A stretch of 64,000 bases of DNA from an uncultured Pelagibacteraceae bacterium (GTDB lineage: Bacteria; Pseudomonadota; Alphaproteobacteria; Pelagibacterales; Pelagibacteraceae): NCBI GenBank assembly GCA_902624535.1, contig CACNYF010000003.1:1-64000 (forward strand), given 5' to 3'. The position numbers and the translations under genes are program-made. This document shows, one piece after another, positions 1 to 7,397 of the stretch (positions within the stretch are counted from its first letter, which is position 1; the number at the start of each line of letters is the position of its first letter). A model generated the notes under the pieces. It did no database searches. It was not told the origin of the DNA and worked only from the letters and a program-made list of their open reading frames with translations.

Positions 1-1047
1 TTTTTTTGAACACTGTTCTGTATCACTAGAGCCTTGAAGATCTTTTGTTCGACTATCTTTATCTTTAAGAGTTAATTCAATTGATTTTACTATTCTATTA
101 GAAGCTTCTTTTTCACCTAAGTAATCTAACATCATTGCAGCTGACCAAATTTGTCCCACCGGATTAGCTATACCTTGACCCGCAATATCTGGCGCTGATC
201 CATGAACGGGTTCAAACAAAGATGGATATTTATTTGTTGGATTTATATTTCCAGAAGGAGCAATTCCAATAGTTCCAGTACAAGCCGGACCTAGATCTGA
301 TAAAATATCTCCAAAAAGGTTTGATGCGACTATCACATCAAAACGTTCAGGACTTAGAACAAATCTAGCAGCTAATATATCAATATGGTACTGATCAGTT
401 TCCACATCAGAATATTTCTTTTTGTTCTCATTAAATCTTTCATCCCAATAAGGCATTGTAATTGATATTCCATTTGATTTTGTTGCACTTGTTAATTTTT
501 TTCTTTTTCTTTTTTTAGCTAATTCAAAAGCAAATTTTTGAACTCTATCTATTCCATATTTTGACATTACTGTTTCTTGGATAACAACTTCTCTATCAGT
601 TCCTTGATACATTCTTCCACCAACTGATGAATATTCTCCTTCAGTATTTTCTCTAACAATTATCATATCAATATCACCTGGCTTTTTATTAGCTAATGGT
701 GCATTTACACCGTCAAAAAGTTTTACTGGTCTTAAATTAATAAATTGATCAAATTCTCGTCTAAATTTTAATAATGAACCCCAAAGTGTAATATGATCTG
801 GATATTTATCTGGCATCCCAACTGCACCAAAGAAAATTGCATCATGTTTAATTAATTTATCTTTCCAATCATTTGGCATCATTTTTCCATGTTTTTCGTA
901 ATAATCACATGATGCAAAATCATAATCTTCTATATTTAATTTAAATTGATGTTGTTGAGAAATTTCTTTTAATATTTTTTGTGCCTCAGGTACAACTTCT
1001 TTACCAATACCGTCGCCAGCAATTGACGCTATAGAATACTCTTTCAT
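1..1047 (-). CDS. Tartrate/D-malate dehydrogenase-like isocitrate/isopropylmalate dehydrogenase family protein, 3' end cut by window edge
   Basis: Read on minus strand from ATG at 1047: MKEYSIASIAGDGIGKEVVPEAQKIL...FFGAVGMPDKYPDHITLW...RENTEGEYSSVGGRMYQGTDREVVIQ...ASNLFGDILSDLGPACTGTIGIAPSGNINP...FEPVHGSAPDIAGQGIANP; open to position 1. Missing from the ORF track because it runs off the window. Confidence 0.85.
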   Translation of the reverse strand, partial: MKEYSIASIAGDGIGKEVVPEAQKILKEISQQHQFKLNIEDYDFASCDYYEKHGKMMPNDWKDKLIKHDAIFFGAVGMPDKYPDHITLWGSLLKFRREFDQFINLRPVKLFDGVNAPLANKKPGDIDMIIVRENTEGEYSSVGGRMYQGTDREVVIQETVMSKYGIDRVQKFAFELAKKRKRKKLTSATKSNGISITMPYWDERFNENKKKYSDVETDQYHIDILAARFVLSPERFDVIVASNLFGDILSDLGPACTGTIGIAPSGNINPTNKYPSLFEPVHGSAPDIAGQGIANPVGQIWSAAMMLDYLGEKEASNRIVKSIELTLKDKDSRTKDLQGSSDTEQCSKK

Positions 1048-2082
1048 TTATTTTACAAATGTATCGTTAAATTGCTTTGTAACTCTTACAAAAGTTGTAC
1101 ATTTACTTAATTGTTTTAATGAGGGTGCTCCAACATATGTGCAACTACTTCTTACACCACCTAAAATATTTAAAATTGTATCATTAATTTTACCACGATA
1201 CCTAACTCTTACTGTTCTACCTTCACTGCTTCTATAATCAGATAAACCACCATAATGTTTTTTGTTAGCTGTTTCAGAACTTGATCCATAAAATTCTATA
1301 TACTTTGAACCGTTAGATTTTACTAATCTTCCTTTACCTTCATCGTGACCCGCAAACATTCCTCCAAGCATAACAAAATCAGCTCCACCGCCAAATGCTT
1401 TAGCAACATCACCTGGACATGTACATCCACCATCTGCAATTATATGTGCACCTAATCCATGAGCAGCATCAGCACATTCTATAACTGCACTTAACTGTGG
1501 ATAGCCAACTCCAGTTTGTATTCGTGTAGTACAGACGCTTCCGGGTCCAATTCCAACTTTAACAATATCTGCACCTGATAAAATTAATTCTTGAGTCATA
1601 TCAGCAGTAACAACATTACCTGCTATAATTGTTTTTGTTGGATATTTATCTCTTACAGATTTTAAAAATTTACTAAAATGCTCTGAATAACCGTTTGCAA
1701 CATCAATACAAATGAATTTAATGAAACTAAATTCTTTTAAAACTTTATCTAAATTTTGAAAATCTTCTTTTTTTGTTCCAATACTTAAAGCTACATTTGG
1801 ATATATTGATTTAATCTTTTTAAATTGTTTGATTTTTTTAACATCATGCTGTTTTGTTAAGCATGTAATCATTCCGTATTCAGATAATTTTTCAGCAACA
1901 CCAAGCACGCCTACACCATCCATATTAGCTGCCATTATAGGAATCCCAGACCATTCATTTTTACTGTATTTAAAACGGTAAGTTCGTTTTAAATTAACAT
2001 CTTTTCTACTTTTAAGAGTGCTTCTTTTAGGTCTAAAAAGTACGTCGGAATAATCTAGTTTTAGCTCTTCTTCAATTCTCAC
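1048..2082 (-). CDS. guaC: GMP reductase (probable GTG start at 2082; the track's ATG at 2100 adds an unlikely 6-aa extension)
   Basis: [61 protein letters not shown]. coli GuaC begins MRIEEDLKLGFKDVL, supporting the GTG start. Confidence 0.9.
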
Positions 2083-2204
2083 AAAAATGAAGGTATACAT
2101 TCAATGAATGATAATTCAATTTAATAATTGAACTTATTAACGTTGTATTTTAACAATTTTAAAATTACTGATTGAATTATTAATATATAAATTAAAATAA
2201 ATAA

Positions 2205-3080
2205 ATGTTTGAAGGTTTTAAAAGTAAATACGTCAATGTTAAAAAGGGAAAAGTCTTTTGCAGAGTTAAAGGAGATGGTCCTCCTTTATTATTACTTCAT
2301 GGTTATCCACAAACACATTTAATGTGGCACAAAACAGCTCCCGAGTTGTCGAAATACTTTACAGTTGTTGCAGCAGACCTAAGAGGTTATGGAAATAGTT
2401 TAGCTCCACAATCTGATAGTAAACATTTTAATTATTCAAAAAGAGAAATGGCAAATGACATGAAACAAATGATGGTAAAATTAGGATATGCAAATTTTTT
2501 TGTTGCAGGTCATGATAGAGGTGGAAGAGTTGCTCATAGATTGGCAAGAGACCACAGAAAAAACGTGCTTGCTATTAGTGTATTAGATATTTGTCCAACA
2601 TTAGATATGTATGAACTAACAACTAGACATTTTGCAAAAGCATACTTCCATTGGTTTTTTTTAATTCAGCCAAAATGGTTACCTGAAAGAATGATAATGA
2701 GTGATCCAAAAAAATGGATGAAGAATTGCTTAGATAAATGGTCTGGTAATCATAAATTTGGAAAAGTTGAAGAGGGTTATCTAAAGTGCTTTAAACAACC
2801 AAATAGAATACACGGATCATGCGAGGATTATAGAGCATCTGCTACTATTGATCTTGATCATGACAGATACGACCGAAAGAAAAAATTAAATATCCCTGTT
2901 CAAGTTTTATGGGGAAAAAATGGAGTTATAGGCAAACAATTTAAACCAATTAAAATTTGGCAAAAATATTCAAATAAAAAAGTTGTTGGAGTTGCTGTTA
3001 AATCTGGACATTTTATACCAGAGCAAAATCCCAAAGAAACTATTAAACAATTAAAAAGTTTCTTTTTAAAAAATGCTTAA
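2205..3080 (+). CDS. Alpha/beta hydrolase, fluoroacetate/haloacetate dehalogenase-like
   Basis: GHDRGGRVAHRLARDH nucleophile region, AYFHWFFLIQP, LDKWSG, CEDYRA, SGHFIPEQNP, all matching the fluoroacetate dehalogenase pattern. Confidence 0.8.
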   Translation: MFEGFKSKYVNVKKGKVFCRVKGDGPPLLLLHGYPQTHLMWHKTAPELSKYFTVVAADLRGYGNSLAPQSDSKHFNYSKREMANDMKQMMVKLGYANFFVAGHDRGGRVAHRLARDHRKNVLAISVLDICPTLDMYELTTRHFAKAYFHWFFLIQPKWLPERMIMSDPKKWMKNCLDKWSGNHKFGKVEEGYLKCFKQPNRIHGSCEDYRASATIDLDHDRYDRKKKLNIPVQVLWGKNGVIGKQFKPIKIWQKYSNKKVVGVAVKSGHFIPEQNPKETIKQLKSFFLKNA

Positions 3081-3861
3081 AATTATTCCTAATAAAAAAA
3101 ATATAGGCGCAGAATTAGTTTGTGATTTAAATAAAATTAATAATTCTACATTAAAAAAAATTAAATCTGCCTTATCGAAATATGGAATGATTTATTTTAG
3201 AAACCAAAAATTAAGCTCTGATTATTATGTAAAATTTGCAAAAAAATTTGGAAAACTAGCAAACTATCCAAGACTTAAAGGATTGAATAAAAAATATCCT
3301 CAAATAACTGTTGTTCAAAGAAAATCGACTGACAAAGGCCCTAGTTTTGGTGAGCAATTTCATACTGATTCAATTTATACTAAAAAACCACCTAGGTTTA
3401 CTATGTTGCTTTCTAAATTAGTTCCAAAAAAAGGTCAGGCAAACACAGATTTTTGTTCACAATATTTAGCTTATGAAAAATTACCAGCTAACTTTAAAAG
3501 AAAGTTTAAAAACGAAAAATGTATATTTTCATCAGAAGGACCTATTTCTGTAACGAGATTGGAAAGAGAGAAAGAAAAAGGGAAAAAAGCGAAAGAACTT
3601 ATTTCAAAGCATAAATTAATTAGAAAAATAAACAGTAAATACACTTTATATTGTAGTCCAGGACATTTTATTCGTTTTAATAACAGTAAAATTGACAAAA
3701 AATTAAAAGCTTATTTATTTAAACACCAATTAAAAAAAAGTTTTCAATATTCTTTAGAGTGGGAAAAGAACCAACTAGCCATTTGGGATAATAGATCTAT
3801 GCTTCATCAAGCAACTGCTTTTAAAGGAGATAGAATTATGCATAGAATTACTGTCCAATAA
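3073..3861 (+). CDS. TauD/TfdA-family 2-oxoglutarate/Fe(II) dioxygenase
   Basis: QFHTDSIYTKKPPRFTMLLSKLVP (HxD) and WDNRSMLHQATAFKGDRIMHRITVQ distal His/Arg; overlaps the preceding gene by 8 nt. Confidence 0.85.
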   Translation: MLKIIPNKKNIGAELVCDLNKINNSTLKKIKSALSKYGMIYFRNQKLSSDYYVKFAKKFGKLANYPRLKGLNKKYPQITVVQRKSTDKGPSFGEQFHTDSIYTKKPPRFTMLLSKLVPKKGQANTDFCSQYLAYEKLPANFKRKFKNEKCIFSSEGPISVTRLEREKEKGKKAKELISKHKLIRKINSKYTLYCSPGHFIRFNNSKIDKKLKAYLFKHQLKKSFQYSLEWEKNQLAIWDNRSMLHQATAFKGDRIMHRITVQ

Positions 3862-4784
3862 TGTTCCAGGTATTTCTAGGGTTAACACCATTTATAGGAA
3901 TTACTCTTATTGGTTATATTTTGGGATATATTAAAATATTTGATTTACAAAAGGCTAAAATATTTAATTTATTTTCATTTTATATAGCAGTACCAGCTTT
4001 AATCATAAAACTAGTTGCACAAAGTGATGTTGGTGAAATAGATGTATCTCAAATTTCATCATATTTTTTTATGCAATTAACAAGTGGAATATTTGCTTTC
4101 TTATTAACCAAAAATACTTTCAAAAGATCAATACAAGAATCTATTATTTGGGCTCTAACAGTTGCTTTATCCAATCACGTAATATTAGTTTTACCTATTG
4201 CTGAAATATTCTTTGCTGGAAGTACTATAACTCAAATATCAGGCATTATTTTAATGGATAGCGTTGTGTTATTATCCATAGTTAGTTTCTTTTTAGAACT
4301 TACAGTAAAAAAAAAAATTAAATTATTTCATTTTTTAAGAAATTTAATATTAAACCCGATGATATTAGCAATATTAATTGGATTGATAATAAGAATTTCA
4401 AAAATCAATATAGACGAAACACCGTTTGAGTATATTCTTCAAAGATTGGCAGCATGTGTTATGCCAGTTGGTCTATTTGCAATCGGTATTATTCTCTCTT
4501 TTTACTCAAAAAAAGTTTTTAATAAATTAACAATCACTATTTCAATATTAAAACTTATTATATCACCATTGATTTTGCTATTTTTAGGGTACACAATCTT
4601 TAGCTTATCAAATCCAATAAATTTTGCTGGAGCTTTGTTGGTGAGTGTTGGCCCTTGTGGAGCCACCTCAATTGTTATGTGCTCTGCATATAATGTAAGT
4701 CCAGAAAATATTATTAAAGCAATATTTATTTCAACATTTGCTTCAATATTTACTTTTTTATTTACTATAAATTTATTAAATTAA
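3861..4784 (+). CDS. AEC (auxin efflux carrier) family transporter
   Basis: 307-aa hydrophobic protein, LIGYILGYIKIFDLQKAKIFNLFSFYIAVPALIIKLVAQ...VSVGPCGATSIVMCSAYN; TAATG overlap with previous gene. Confidence 0.75.
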   Translation: MFQVFLGLTPFIGITLIGYILGYIKIFDLQKAKIFNLFSFYIAVPALIIKLVAQSDVGEIDVSQISSYFFMQLTSGIFAFLLTKNTFKRSIQESIIWALTVALSNHVILVLPIAEIFFAGSTITQISGIILMDSVVLLSIVSFFLELTVKKKIKLFHFLRNLILNPMILAILIGLIIRISKINIDETPFEYILQRLAACVMPVGLFAIGIILSFYSKKVFNKLTITISILKLIISPLILLFLGYTIFSLSNPINFAGALLVSVGPCGATSIVMCSAYNVSPENIIKAIFISTFASIFTFLFTINLLN

Positions 4785-4788
4785 AATA

Positions 4789-5238
4789 ATGTTTAAAAAA
4801 ATATTTAGTATTGTTTTTATTTCTGTTTTTTTATCATCTATTTCGTTAGCTAAAGATAAAATAGATCAAACAATTGATAAAACCACTGACTTTTTGAAAT
4901 CTTTAACTAAGAAAAGTTTAAATAAATCTCAAACAGCAGAATTTTTGAATAATTATGCAATAACTTTGGAAGATGAAAGAAATCAAGGTGTTGTAACCTA
5001 TATATTTGACGAAAAGAATTACAAAAGATACCAAGCTGGAAAAGTTATTTCAGAAGATGGATGGAGATTTACAAACTTAGGTAAGTTAAGAGTATTTTCA
5101 GGTGATATTAAATTAACATGGAAATTTAAACTTGATAAGCAAAACGTAATAGTAATCAAGACTAAATTCCAACCAATTGGGAAAGAATATCCTTTTACTT
5201 ATCAACTAAAAGATAAGTTTTTTGAAAAGATCAATTAA
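4789..5238 (+). CDS. Hypothetical exported protein
   Basis: 149 aa with N-terminal signal-like segment MFKKIFSIVFISVFLSSISLA. Confidence 0.6.
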   Translation: MFKKIFSIVFISVFLSSISLAKDKIDQTIDKTTDFLKSLTKKSLNKSQTAEFLNNYAITLEDERNQGVVTYIFDEKNYKRYQAGKVISEDGWRFTNLGKLRVFSGDIKLTWKFKLDKQNVIVIKTKFQPIGKEYPFTYQLKDKFFEKIN

Positions 5239-5351
5239 TGTCTAAAAGATATAGTGGAAAATCATTCAAAGACTCTAGTGTAATGAAAAAAGCTAAACTT
5301 TCTTTGAAGGAAAAAAGAAAAATTAAAAAAGATAAGAAAAAGAACAAGTGA
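5238..5351 (+). CDS. Small lysine-rich basic protein (37 aa)
   Basis: Read directly: MSKRYSGKSFKDSSVMKKAKLSLKEKRKIKKDKKKNK*; TAATG coupling with 4789..5238; below the size cutoff of the track. Confidence 0.5.
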   Translation: MSKRYSGKSFKDSSVMKKAKLSLKEKRKIKKDKKKNK

Positions 5352-5451
5352 AATCTTGTTTGCAACAAAAAATAAAAGTAGTATAAACCAACAATTATTT
5401 ACGGCGGGGTAGCTCAGTTGGTTAGAGCGCGGGACTCATAAGCCCGAGGTC
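5351..5451 (+). repeat. Left copy of a 101-bp direct repeat (tRNA-Met upstream region + 5' part of tRNA-Met)
   Basis: aaatcttgtttgca[a]caaaaaataaaagtagtataaaccaacaattatttacggcggggtagctcag...agcccgaggtc; one mismatch to 6741..6841. Confidence 0.95.
5403..5451 (+). pseudogene. Truncated tRNA-Met (5' part through the anticodon arm and variable region; no intact T arm or acceptor 3' strand)
   Basis: Identical to 6793..6841, then diverges to cattgttaaatagcc... with no T-arm or CCA end. Confidence 0.9.
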
Positions 5452-5503
5452 CATTGTTAAATAGCCTTGAAACACAATCATTATTTATAATTAATAAAAT
5501 ATT

Positions 5504-5523
5504 GATCACAAATAGATCACACT
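5504..5523 (+). repeat. Inner 20-bp direct repeat, left copy GATCACAAATAGATCACACT
   Basis: 19/20 identical to 6704..6723 (GATCACAATTAGATCACACT). Confidence 0.85.
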
Positions 5524-5539
5524 GATAATATCTTTTTAT

Positions 5540-6511
5540 ATGAAAAAAAAGCTGATCACAAAAATATTAGCTATAATTTTTCTGAAATTAATATTTAATC
5601 TTAATACATTTGCTGCAGAACAAACAAAGGCTAGATATGAAAAAATAGCTCAAGAATTTACAAAGAACACTAATGTAAAGATAAAACCAAGCATGTTAAA
5701 AATGAAAGGTCTATCGTTTAAAGAATCTATAGGCTATCTTGGTAAAGGTGAGATGGCTGTTGTCAAAGGTTCTCCGGAGTCAGCATTTAAAGGTAAAGAG
5801 TTTTATCAAATTGTAATTGACTATTCGAATTGTGTTAAAGATTACTACGGACATAATGATTGCAATCATTCTGGAGGTGTAACTAGATCTGAAGTTAGAG
5901 ATAAAAATAAGCCAACTTTTAGTAAAGGAACTGAGAAATGGATCCATTATGCTGTAAGACCAATGCAAAATTTTTTTGATAGTAGAAAAAAACATATAAG
6001 TCAGTGTTATGCCAAGATACCTGGTAGAGGCGGTGGATACCCAACATTTTTTTTGACGTTCAGAGATAACTATTTATGGGTTAACTTACAACAAGCCGGC
6101 ATTCTAAATTCATCTACAGGGAATTATAACCAAAAATCAATTTGGGCTAAATTAAAAAATTTTGAGGGAAAAATAACTAATAATCTTGGAGCAACTGAAT
6201 GGACTAGTATTTTAGTTCACATGATAAATAGGTCAGACAAAAAAGGATTAATTGAAATTTTTATCGATGGATCTGAAAAACCTACATATAAATTTGAAGG
6301 ACCATTATATTCATCTCATCCTAAAGATAGACCAACAACAAAATGTTATTTAAAAATTGGAGCAGTAGCAGAAAATAATAAAAGAGCATTACAAGATGAT
6401 ATTAAAGAAAAATTTGGAGACATAACTGAGAATATGGTTGTATGGTACGATTCTCTAGTAATTGGAAAAACAAGAAAAAAAGTTATGGATAATGTAGAAA
6501 AAGATAAATGA
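5540..6511 (+). CDS. Exported heparin-lyase-I-like/polysaccharide-lyase-like protein, island cargo
   Basis: Signal-like N-terminus; GGVTRSEVRDKNKPTF...WIHYAVRP...LQQAGILN...WTSILVHMINRSDKKGLIEIFIDG...YLKIGAVAE...MVVWYDSLVIG, a jelly-roll lyase-like pattern; family call tentative. Confidence 0.55.
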   Translation: MKKKLITKILAIIFLKLIFNLNTFAAEQTKARYEKIAQEFTKNTNVKIKPSMLKMKGLSFKESIGYLGKGEMAVVKGSPESAFKGKEFYQIVIDYSNCVKDYYGHNDCNHSGGVTRSEVRDKNKPTFSKGTEKWIHYAVRPMQNFFDSRKKHISQCYAKIPGRGGGYPTFFLTFRDNYLWVNLQQAGILNSSTGNYNQKSIWAKLKNFEGKITNNLGATEWTSILVHMINRSDKKGLIEIFIDGSEKPTYKFEGPLYSSHPKDRPTTKCYLKIGAVAENNKRALQDDIKEKFGDITENMVVWYDSLVIGKTRKKVMDNVEKDK

Positions 6512-6660
6512 AAAAACTTTTAGGGATAATTTTTATTTTAATTTTACTGGTGATATTAGCCCAAACATACGAGTCAGTATCTTGTAGAGAGCACGTAGAA
6601 AGATTAAAACTGACTGGTTCTGAGGCTGAAAATGAATTCAAAAAATGTAAAAGCTTTTAA
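6508..6660 (+). CDS. Small membrane-anchored or exported protein (50 aa)
   Basis: Read directly: MKKLLGIIFILILLVILAQTYESVSCREHVERLKLTGSEAENEFKKCKSF*; ATGA overlap with the preceding gene. Confidence 0.5.
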   Translation: MKKLLGIIFILILLVILAQTYESVSCREHVERLKLTGSEAENEFKKCKSF

Positions 6661-6703
6661 TACTAGACGCGGGACAGAAACCAAATTTTATCTTTGAAAA
6701 AAC

Positions 6704-6723
6704 GATCACAATTAGATCACACT
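6704..6723 (+). repeat. Inner 20-bp direct repeat, right copy
   Basis: GATCACAATTAGATCACACT. Confidence 0.85.
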
Positions 6724-6740
6724 CAGATCAGAAATTACAT

Positions 6741-6841
6741 AAATCTTGTTTGCATCAAAAAATAAAAGTAGTATAAACCAACAATTATTTACGGCGGGGT
6801 AGCTCAGTTGGTTAGAGCGCGGGACTCATAAGCCCGAGGTC
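6741..6841 (+). repeat. Right copy of the 101-bp direct repeat
   Basis: 100/101 identical to 5351..5451 by eye. Confidence 0.95.
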
Positions 6842-6869
6842 AGTGGTTCGATCCCACTTCCCGCTACCA
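6793..6869 (+). tRNA. tRNA-Met (CAT anticodon), CCA encoded
   Basis: 77-nt cloverleaf: GGCGGGG acceptor, GCTC/GAGC D stem, CTCATAA anticodon loop, AGTGG TTCGATC CCACT T arm, TCCCGCT-A-CCA end. Confidence 0.93.
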
Positions 6870-7397
6870 TCAGTGGCCTGGAAAATCTAATAAGTTTTCT
6901 ACTTTATAACCTTTTTTTAAAAGATTATCTGTTCCACCGAGATCAAATAAATTAATTACAAATATAAATCCAGCTACATTACTTTTAGAAATTTCAATCA
7001 GTTTTGCTGCAGCTTCTGCTGTGCCTCCAGTTGCAATTAAATCATCAATAATTAATATATTTTCATTTTCATCAAATGAATCTTTATGTACTTCAATAGT
7101 TGCTGTTCCGTATTCTAATTCAAAATCAACAGAATGGACTTCAGCAGGAAGTTTATTTTTTTTTCTTAGCATTATAAAGGGCTTGTCTAAAATATATGAA
7201 ATTGCTGAAGCAAAAACAAACCCTCTAGATTCTACAGCTGCTATTTTATCAAATTTGAATTTTTTTGATCTTTCCACTATTTGATTAATACATTCTTTGA
7301 ATGCTTTTTCATCTTTTATAAGTGTTGTAATATCTCTAAATAAAATTCCTTTTTTAGGGTAATCTTGAATTGACCTAATATGTTCTTTTAAATCCAT
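6870..7397 (-). CDS. apt: Adenine phosphoribosyltransferase
   Basis: IRSIQDYPKKGILFRDITTLI, AVESRGFVFASAIS, ILIIDDLIATGGTAEAAAKLI. Confidence 0.93.
   Translation of the reverse strand: MDLKEHIRSIQDYPKKGILFRDITTLIKDEKAFKECINQIVERSKKFKFDKIAAVESRGFVFASAISYILDKPFIMLRKKNKLPAEVHSVDFELEYGTATIEVHKDSFDENENILIIDDLIATGGTAEAAAKLIEISKSNVAGFIFVINLFDLGGTDNLLKKGYKVENLLDFPGH

Follow-up and report, generated by a model that had tools for sequence, protein, structure and literature searches.

A 1,390-bp insertion without an integrase at the tRNA-Met gene of a SAR11 bacterium, probably a cassette on the att ends of a satellite-like element

Tycheposons and VEIMEs, two kinds of marine phage satellites, were reportedly described by Hackl in 2023 and by Eppley in 2022, respectively. 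The PICMIs are also known marine phage satellites, and VEIMEs and tycheposons are cited in the account of them (PMC10803314). Islands that lie between att sites and lack an integrase are termed CIMEs in Streptococcus (PMC7563491), and integrase-less islands occupy ssrA in Dehalococcoides (PMC3146451). Cassettes associated with tRNA repeats appear in other streamlined plankton, i.e., the Actinomarinales (PMC7771536) and the Methylophilaceae (PMC10872708). SAR11 genomes are small and streamlined as well, and the gain and loss of single genes in them is poorly explained.

The DNA analyzed here is a stretch of 64,000 nucleotides (the window) from a SAR11 bacterium. Positions 5351-5451 and 6741-6841 form a 101-bp direct repeat that is identical at 100 of 101 positions (the sole difference is A at 5365 and T at 6755) and bounds a unit of 1,390 bp. 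The earlier note had described this repeat as the region upstream of tRNA-Met plus the first 49 nucleotides of the gene, with one mismatch, and had stated that only the right copy continues into a complete tRNA. Both descriptions hold: ARAGORN calls one tRNA in the 64-kb window, a tRNA-Met(CAT) at 6793-6869, and the match of the left copy ends after nt 49, with a score of 27.0 bits against the Rfam tRNA threshold of 29. Beyond short tRNA-like stretches, the repeat has no other match in its own assembly. The features of the locus are as follows.

4789..5238, plus strand: 149-aa gene of the left flank, kept beside the site in many relatives (ORF list and relatives)
5351..5402, plus strand: upstream (promoter) region of tRNA-Met, displaced left copy (98% identical to the right copy)
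5403..5451, plus strand: displaced 5' fragment of tRNA-Met, nt 1-49, attL side (repeat comparison and Rfam score)
5502..5529, plus strand: possible promoter, TTGATC-16-GATAAT, overlapping the arm sites (consensus match only)
5504..5521, plus strand: left arm-site pair, GATCACA-AATA-GATCACA (matches satellite L094)
5540..6511, plus strand: cargo gene, 323-aa polysaccharide lyase (Pfam search)
5554..5560, plus strand: third GATCACA unit, within the first codons of the cargo gene (sequence reading)
6508..6660, plus strand: 50-aa ORF, uncertain as a gene
6704..6732, plus strand: right arm sites, GATCACA-ATTA-GATCACA-CTCA-GATCAGA (pattern scan)
6741..6792, plus strand: upstream (promoter) region of tRNA-Met, borne by the element (right-end copies 97% alike, six GATCACA elements)
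6793..6869, plus strand: intact elongator tRNA-Met(CAT) (ARAGORN)
6870..7397, minus strand: apt-like gene (phosphoribosyltransferase), core-gene right flank (family search and relatives)

The flanks satisfy the corresponding part of the Islander test, with an intact tRNA and a displaced 5' fragment upstream of it in the same orientation. The part that calls for an integrase and at least 2 kb is not met: as the earlier note had remarked, no integrase is present among the genes of the 1,390-bp insert. Islander rejects candidates that have no integrase or are shorter than 2 kb, so standard island finders can miss such cassettes (PMC4383910). The use of the 5' half of the gene, which had been singled out as unusual, is an uncommon but known type, since a 5' tDNA fragment is found in 159 of 3919 Islander islands (PMC4383910), and 5'-type tRNA insertions are also on record elsewhere (PMC8371274). 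On the other side of the gene, L058, L061, L062, L063, and L064 have approximately 0.7-2 kb of extra DNA between tRNA-Met and apt; in several relatives the tRNA-Met gene is a hot spot on its 3' side too.

The genomes compared in this study are mostly incomplete single-cell or metagenome assemblies. Strains with a single intact tRNA-Met and no insert, which the earlier note had proposed to look for, were found: in four close relatives (L056, L057, L059, and L060) one tRNA-Met is present with apt directly after it. When 5452-6841 is taken out of the window and the flanks are joined, 769 bp align over their full length to these four genomes with 88-93% identity, and the 252 bp around the joined junction align to them with 232-236 matching positions. 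The displaced upstream copy (5351-5402) is similar or identical to the sequence of empty-site genomes. Because the joined flanks align ungapped to the four empty-site SAR11 genomes, the 1,390-bp unit is a real insertion, and both the insert and its empty sites are observed directly.

Inside the unit, a 20-bp direct repeat at 5504 and 6704 had been noticed earlier. It is real and is better read as a pair of 7-mers, GATCACA-N4-GATCACA, with an 11-bp period and one pair at each insert end; a degenerate third unit (GATCAGA) follows on the right at 6726-6732. L049, L091, L092, and L093 likewise have a third GATCACA in the opening codons of the cargo gene. The two offsets, 1390 bp for the tRNA repeat and 1200 bp for the inner one, had both been given correctly, and the difference arises from the position of the iterons, 52 bp inside the left tRNA fragment and approximately 60-70 bp outside the right tRNA start. 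Within the 0.99-Mb assembly to which the window belongs, the exact GATCACA pair has no occurrence besides 5504 and 6704, and the control, the reversed pattern, is absent. A blind scan for any 7-mer with at least three G/C repeated at 11 bp, for which no sequence was assumed, gave exactly those two sites across the 64-kb window and no site across 81 kb from twelve related loci. Six of 250 genomes sampled from the genus (the window's own included) contain the GATCACA pair, exactly twice each and 1.2-5.2 kb apart; the reversed control gave scattered matches in four other genomes of the same sample. The pattern GGTCCAC-N4-GGTCCAC was detected in 8 of 294 and 13 of 399 genomes, with zero control matches. 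The pairs and their specificity are thus observed, and the inner repeat is best read as putative arm-type sites of an integrase, whose binding to them is inferred without binding data. The iteron pair provides a simple sequence handle for counting cassettes and pairing each with its helper.

More than 15 similar cassettes occur in related genomes, with lengths of 1.0-3.8 kb, varied cargo, and no integrase, mostly at the same tRNA-Met; an intact tRNA-Met preceded at a distance of 1.2-3.8 kb by a tRNA-Met fragment was seen in several of the 297 SAR11-family genomes searched. Cassettes with GATCACA pairs (type A) are located at tRNA-Met in the window, L048, L049, and L092 (the latter three with window-like ends, other cargo among them), at a non-tRNA site in L091 and L093, and at tRNA-Val in L095. 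The L048 cassette (1633-3115) carries the lyase and is 97% identical to that of the window, but its left tRNA fragment is lost and the 50-aa ORF is absent; a 441-aa ORF is placed before its left arms, and the junctions are at short TGAAAAAAC-type repeats. Cassettes with GGTCCAC pairs (type B) comprise nine complete loci (L050-L053, L140, L142, L144, L146, and L148) besides partial ones. In all nine, the left side carries tRNA-Met nt 1-63 and the length is 998-3795 bp; no integrase like that of L094, an element described below, or that of L050 was found in them, and the ORF lists between the tRNA copies of L050-L053 include no evident integrase. Each of three GGTCCAC loci (L051, L079, and L142) has a head-to-tail arrangement of two gene units and an arm pair of the left type in its interior. 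A DUF6804-type gene is the first unit in L051 (4114-4758) and L079 (4561-5205), and the second units differ, which suggests unit-wise exchange. A 55-aa ORF of unknown function (MKIIIQSIKNYF...) recurs near cassette right ends (L050 4536-4703, L052 4304-4471, L081, L117, and L123) and is also found beside the hisE/TRAP locus of other genomes.

The right promoters, i.e., those beside the intact tRNA, are 97% alike in the six type A elements and 90% alike in type B, while the displaced left promoters are only 74% and 65% alike, respectively. Within a single locus, the two copies are only 62-65% alike in L049, L052, and L053, and the range over the cassettes other than the window's at the same tRNA-Met is 62-83%, as against 98% in the window. 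No tRNA hosts the element of L091 and L093, which is inserted between hisE and a TRAP-transporter gene, yet the tRNA-Met promoter and the 5' part of the tRNA again make up its right end; in another genome (L118), hisE and the TRAP-transporter gene are directly adjacent, with no insert. On these comparisons, the right end with its promoter and tRNA 5' part belongs to the mobile DNA, and the intact tRNA-Met at 6793-6869 is composite by the same reading, its 5' part coming from the element and its 3' part past the crossover being resident. The tRNA stretches at the junctions of L091 and L093 (nt 22-56 at the left and nt 1-40 or 1-51 at the right) overlap around the anticodon loop, where the crossover is inferred to lie; the exact pre-insertion sequence of this secondary site was not found, and the crossover point is not fixed exactly. 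The 98% identity of the window's promoter copies is what would be expected from local duplication or from homologous recombination at the tRNA without site-specific recombination, but such an event would not predict paired iterons at both ends, the copies differ in other cassettes at the same tRNA, and the same ends are also found at tRNA-Val and at the non-tRNA site, so that we give this explanation hardly any credence. One simple tandem duplication, which had already been held insufficient before this analysis, is ruled out by the divergent promoter copies in relatives together with the insertion outside a tRNA.

An element with its own integrase is observed in the same tRNA-Met in another species of the genus (L094). 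This 5.5-kb element is arranged in the order tRNA nt 1-58, GATCACA-CATT-GATCACA, a 329-aa tyrosine integrase (PF00589, 2.1e-17), an AAA_25 protein of the primase/helicase kind (PF13481), a small terminase (PF03592 / phrog_51), six GATCACA units, and the intact tRNA-Met. The R, K, H-x-x-R, H, and Y positions of tyrosine recombinases are kept in the integrase alignment. The gene set is typical of phage satellites, with no helper phage known, and no relaxase or conjugation gene is present among the genes annotated. L094 is the only GATCACA satellite found; its right-end sequence outside the arms is unlike that of the cassettes, and the left end of cassette L092 is like that of L094 past the tRNA (0 of 20,000 shuffles). 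Homologous integrases were located at nine loci from 397 genomes, all but one or two of which possess a 7-mer pair of their own with the 11-bp spacing, placed near the integrase start, near the tRNA, or near the far end (TTGGAGC, CCGGCAC, CGACGAC, GGCGTCA, CGGACAC, TGCGACC, TCGTCAT, and TGACACA); L111 has only a degenerate pair before the integrase. The integrase of L153 is 71% identical to that of L094 and is located at the same tRNA-Met, with GGGCACA pairs. The arm sequence changes quickly, and it is therefore informative that L094 and the window cassette match exactly in GATCACA. The closest phage relatives of the L094 integrase in the collection searched are Pseudomonas phages (approximately 31% identical), which do not explain the 5' type, because one of them, YA3, has as its attB the final 63 bp of tRNA-Ser, a 3'-type site (PMC7326022). 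A satellite-like GGTCCAC element in L078 is cut by the contig end, its integrase part being unseen, and one of its proteins had no match in the phage collection. In L078 (2377-2568), four GGTCCAC units end the satellite-like genes beside a tRNA-Met whose first 18 nt are mismatched; ARAGORN makes no call there, and the gene may be damaged or misassembled.

The lyase-like gene noticed earlier at 5540 is assigned to the polysaccharide lyases (PF14099, E 4.6e-11); its N-terminus is signal-peptide-like as judged by eye, and a sequence search against the PDB gave no match. Of the 50-aa ORF at 6508 only the open frame stands; as a gene it is unsupported, i.e., it has no family and is absent from the closest relative, L048. 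The ATG of the lyase is 18 nt past the left arm pair, and a first start codon is found 15-23 nt past nearly all left arm pairs checked, including that of L094; in nearly all cassettes the distance to the first cargo gene is 15-19 nt. Right arm pairs have no such ORF start, except in L095, the tRNA-Val element, which is the exception to the left-end layout. Since the L094 integrase starts 16 nt past its left pair and the cargo genes start likewise close, the cargo, by this spacing, sits in place of the integrase gene. A TGATAA-like motif usually precedes the first cargo start codon in other cassettes. Expression of the cargo from the left end remains only a proposal without expression data, because a promoter scan at the left arms showed no excess over shuffles in the region.

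The cargo also has a history that differs from that of its surroundings. When the window is compared with L048, the difference at fourfold sites is 7% for the lyase and 24-53% for four flanking genes, from which the lyase is read as younger in this place than its core-gene flanks and movement of the cargo is inferred. An absence of any empty allele, with cargo that tracks the core genome, would have refuted the element interpretation; empty sites exist, and the cargo is far less diverged. Exchange of cargo is observed as well: L040, L044, and L047 contain lyase homologues (62-66%) adjacent to tRNA-Thr, where the iterons are different, a lyase-like ORF is seen by eye, without a family search, in the integrase-bearing element L106, and the other cassettes carry trypsin-like proteases, a restriction-like helicase, and small secreted or membrane proteins, whose common theme is unsettled. 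An immobile remnant, i.e., a former satellite or integrative element whose integrase was deleted and which is now fixed, could account for the lack of an integrase in both the insert and its own assembly, and erosion does happen, as in L048, where the left tRNA fragment and the 50-aa ORF are missing. It fits poorly with the low divergence of the lyase between hosts relative to the flanking core genes, with the empty sites of close relatives, and with the recurrence of intact-ended cassettes that have varied cargo and the same start-codon spacing in many genomes, and we consider it quite improbable.

These features are probably best explained if the 1,390-bp unit is a non-autonomous cassette that uses the att ends of a SAR11 satellite and whose integration and excision are carried out in trans by the satellite's integrase, an interpretation drawn from sequence comparison without any circle data. 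The earlier note had offered a decayed or non-autonomous element, or one mobilized in trans, for example, by a phage. The non-autonomous nature and mobilization in trans are supported, the movement itself being inferred; decay is not, because neither end is damaged and their layout is a fixed one common to many cassettes, and a satellite-like element with its own integrase, as in L094, is a likelier helper than a phage. The cassette ends would correspond to the att ends of the satellite, i.e., the tRNA-Met core and the paired 7-bp arms (GATCACA, 11-bp period), to which the satellite's tyrosine integrase would bind. In the cassettes an unrelated cargo gene, here the polysaccharide lyase, would take the position of the integrase gene. 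A satellite present in the same cell would provide the integrase in trans, and the cassette, as a circle, would be recombined into the tRNA-Met gene, with the anticodon region as the most likely place of exchange. The insertion would displace the resident promoter and the 5' half of the tRNA in the upstream direction, and the essential tRNA would be kept intact by a new promoter and 5' half from the right end of the cassette. Transfer between cells may come about through packaging together with the satellite or with its helper phage, which is also inferred.

The identity of the helper and its mode of action leave room for two other proposals. The helper may be the integrase of a pelagiphage: in L050, a separate phage-like element with a tyrosine integrase (1-4300, on the 3' side of the same tRNA-Met) shares one genome with a GGTCCAC cassette on the 5' side. 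We regard this proposal as improbable, given that the L050 integrase is only 19% identical to that of L094 and the closest phage match, HTVC028P, is distant (24%), even though phages with GATCACA arms are not excluded. The L050 integrase itself was discarded as the helper on this 19% identity to the L094 kind. A helper encoded in the window's own genome was also sought; this genome is approximately 71% complete and contains no integrase of the L094 kind (best match, 42% over 53 aa), and the cassette and the candidate helper L094 are in different genomes. Alternatively, mobilization may take place only in cis, with a full satellite that integrates alongside the cassette and is excised together with it (accretion), as has been proposed for CIMEs and for the integrase-less ssrA islands of Dehalococcoides (PMC7563491, PMC3146451). 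L114, in which a complete satellite and a cargo-only unit stand in tandem between tRNA repeats with common TGACACA arms, fits such an arrangement, but in the window and most relatives the cassette is alone with both ends intact. Use in cis and in trans is not exclusive, and this proposal overlaps with the satellite cassette mobilized in trans; as the sole mode it is unlikely, though it carries more weight than the other alternatives.

A wider interpretation of the satellite cassettes may equally well prove right or wrong. SAR11 would have a standardized gene-cassette system on phage satellites, in which the cargo lies at the integrase start, 15-19 nt past the left arms, and may use the integrase promoter, the right end rebuilds the tRNA with its own promoter, units are added head to tail, and iteron types are compatibility groups, each with its own helper integrase. 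One- or few-gene cassettes that use satellite integrases to enter an essential tRNA would be a compact and testable route for the gain and loss of genes.

No published description was found of one- or few-gene cassettes that are tied to satellite integrases by arm iterons and carry cargo in place of the integrase; the original tycheposon and VEIME papers were outside this comparison, and novelty is claimed with caution. The CIMEs and the integrase-less tRNA or tmRNA islands are similar in that cargo lies between att sites with no recombinase, at a common site and at times in tandem with a full element. The window element agrees with CIMEs in having kept att sites (recognized by sequence, with function inferred) and no recombination or transfer genes, but not in an ICE/IME origin with conjugation: the related full element L094 has satellite-type genes and is not conjugative, and the start codon of the cassette cargo, which replaces the integrase gene, is at a fixed distance from the left arms. 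L094, L114, and others resemble tycheposons, VEIMEs, and PICMIs as small tRNA-integrated elements with a tyrosine integrase, an AAA/primase-like gene, and a small terminase. The window element has none of those genes and is not a member of the satellite, VEIME, or tycheposon class, for which an own tyrosine integrase with replication or packaging genes, as present in L094, is required. It does qualify as a non-autonomous, MITE-like partner of a satellite, i.e., its ends have sites common to an autonomous relative at the same target, on the basis of the GATCACA pairs in the window and L094 at tRNA-Met, the action of the recombinase on the cassette ends being inferred. The additive flexible islands of Actinomarinales and Methylophilaceae are likewise small cassettes at tRNA genes with partial tRNA repeats, although arm sites, a helper integrase, or a fixed gene-start layout are not named in the available portions of those papers (PMC7771536, PMC10872708). 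Integron cassettes and CALIN arrays are also gene cassettes without an integrase, to which the head-to-tail pairs in L051, L079, and L142 are comparable; the att ends of the SAR11 cassettes, in contrast, consist of a tRNA core with 11-bp arm iterons.
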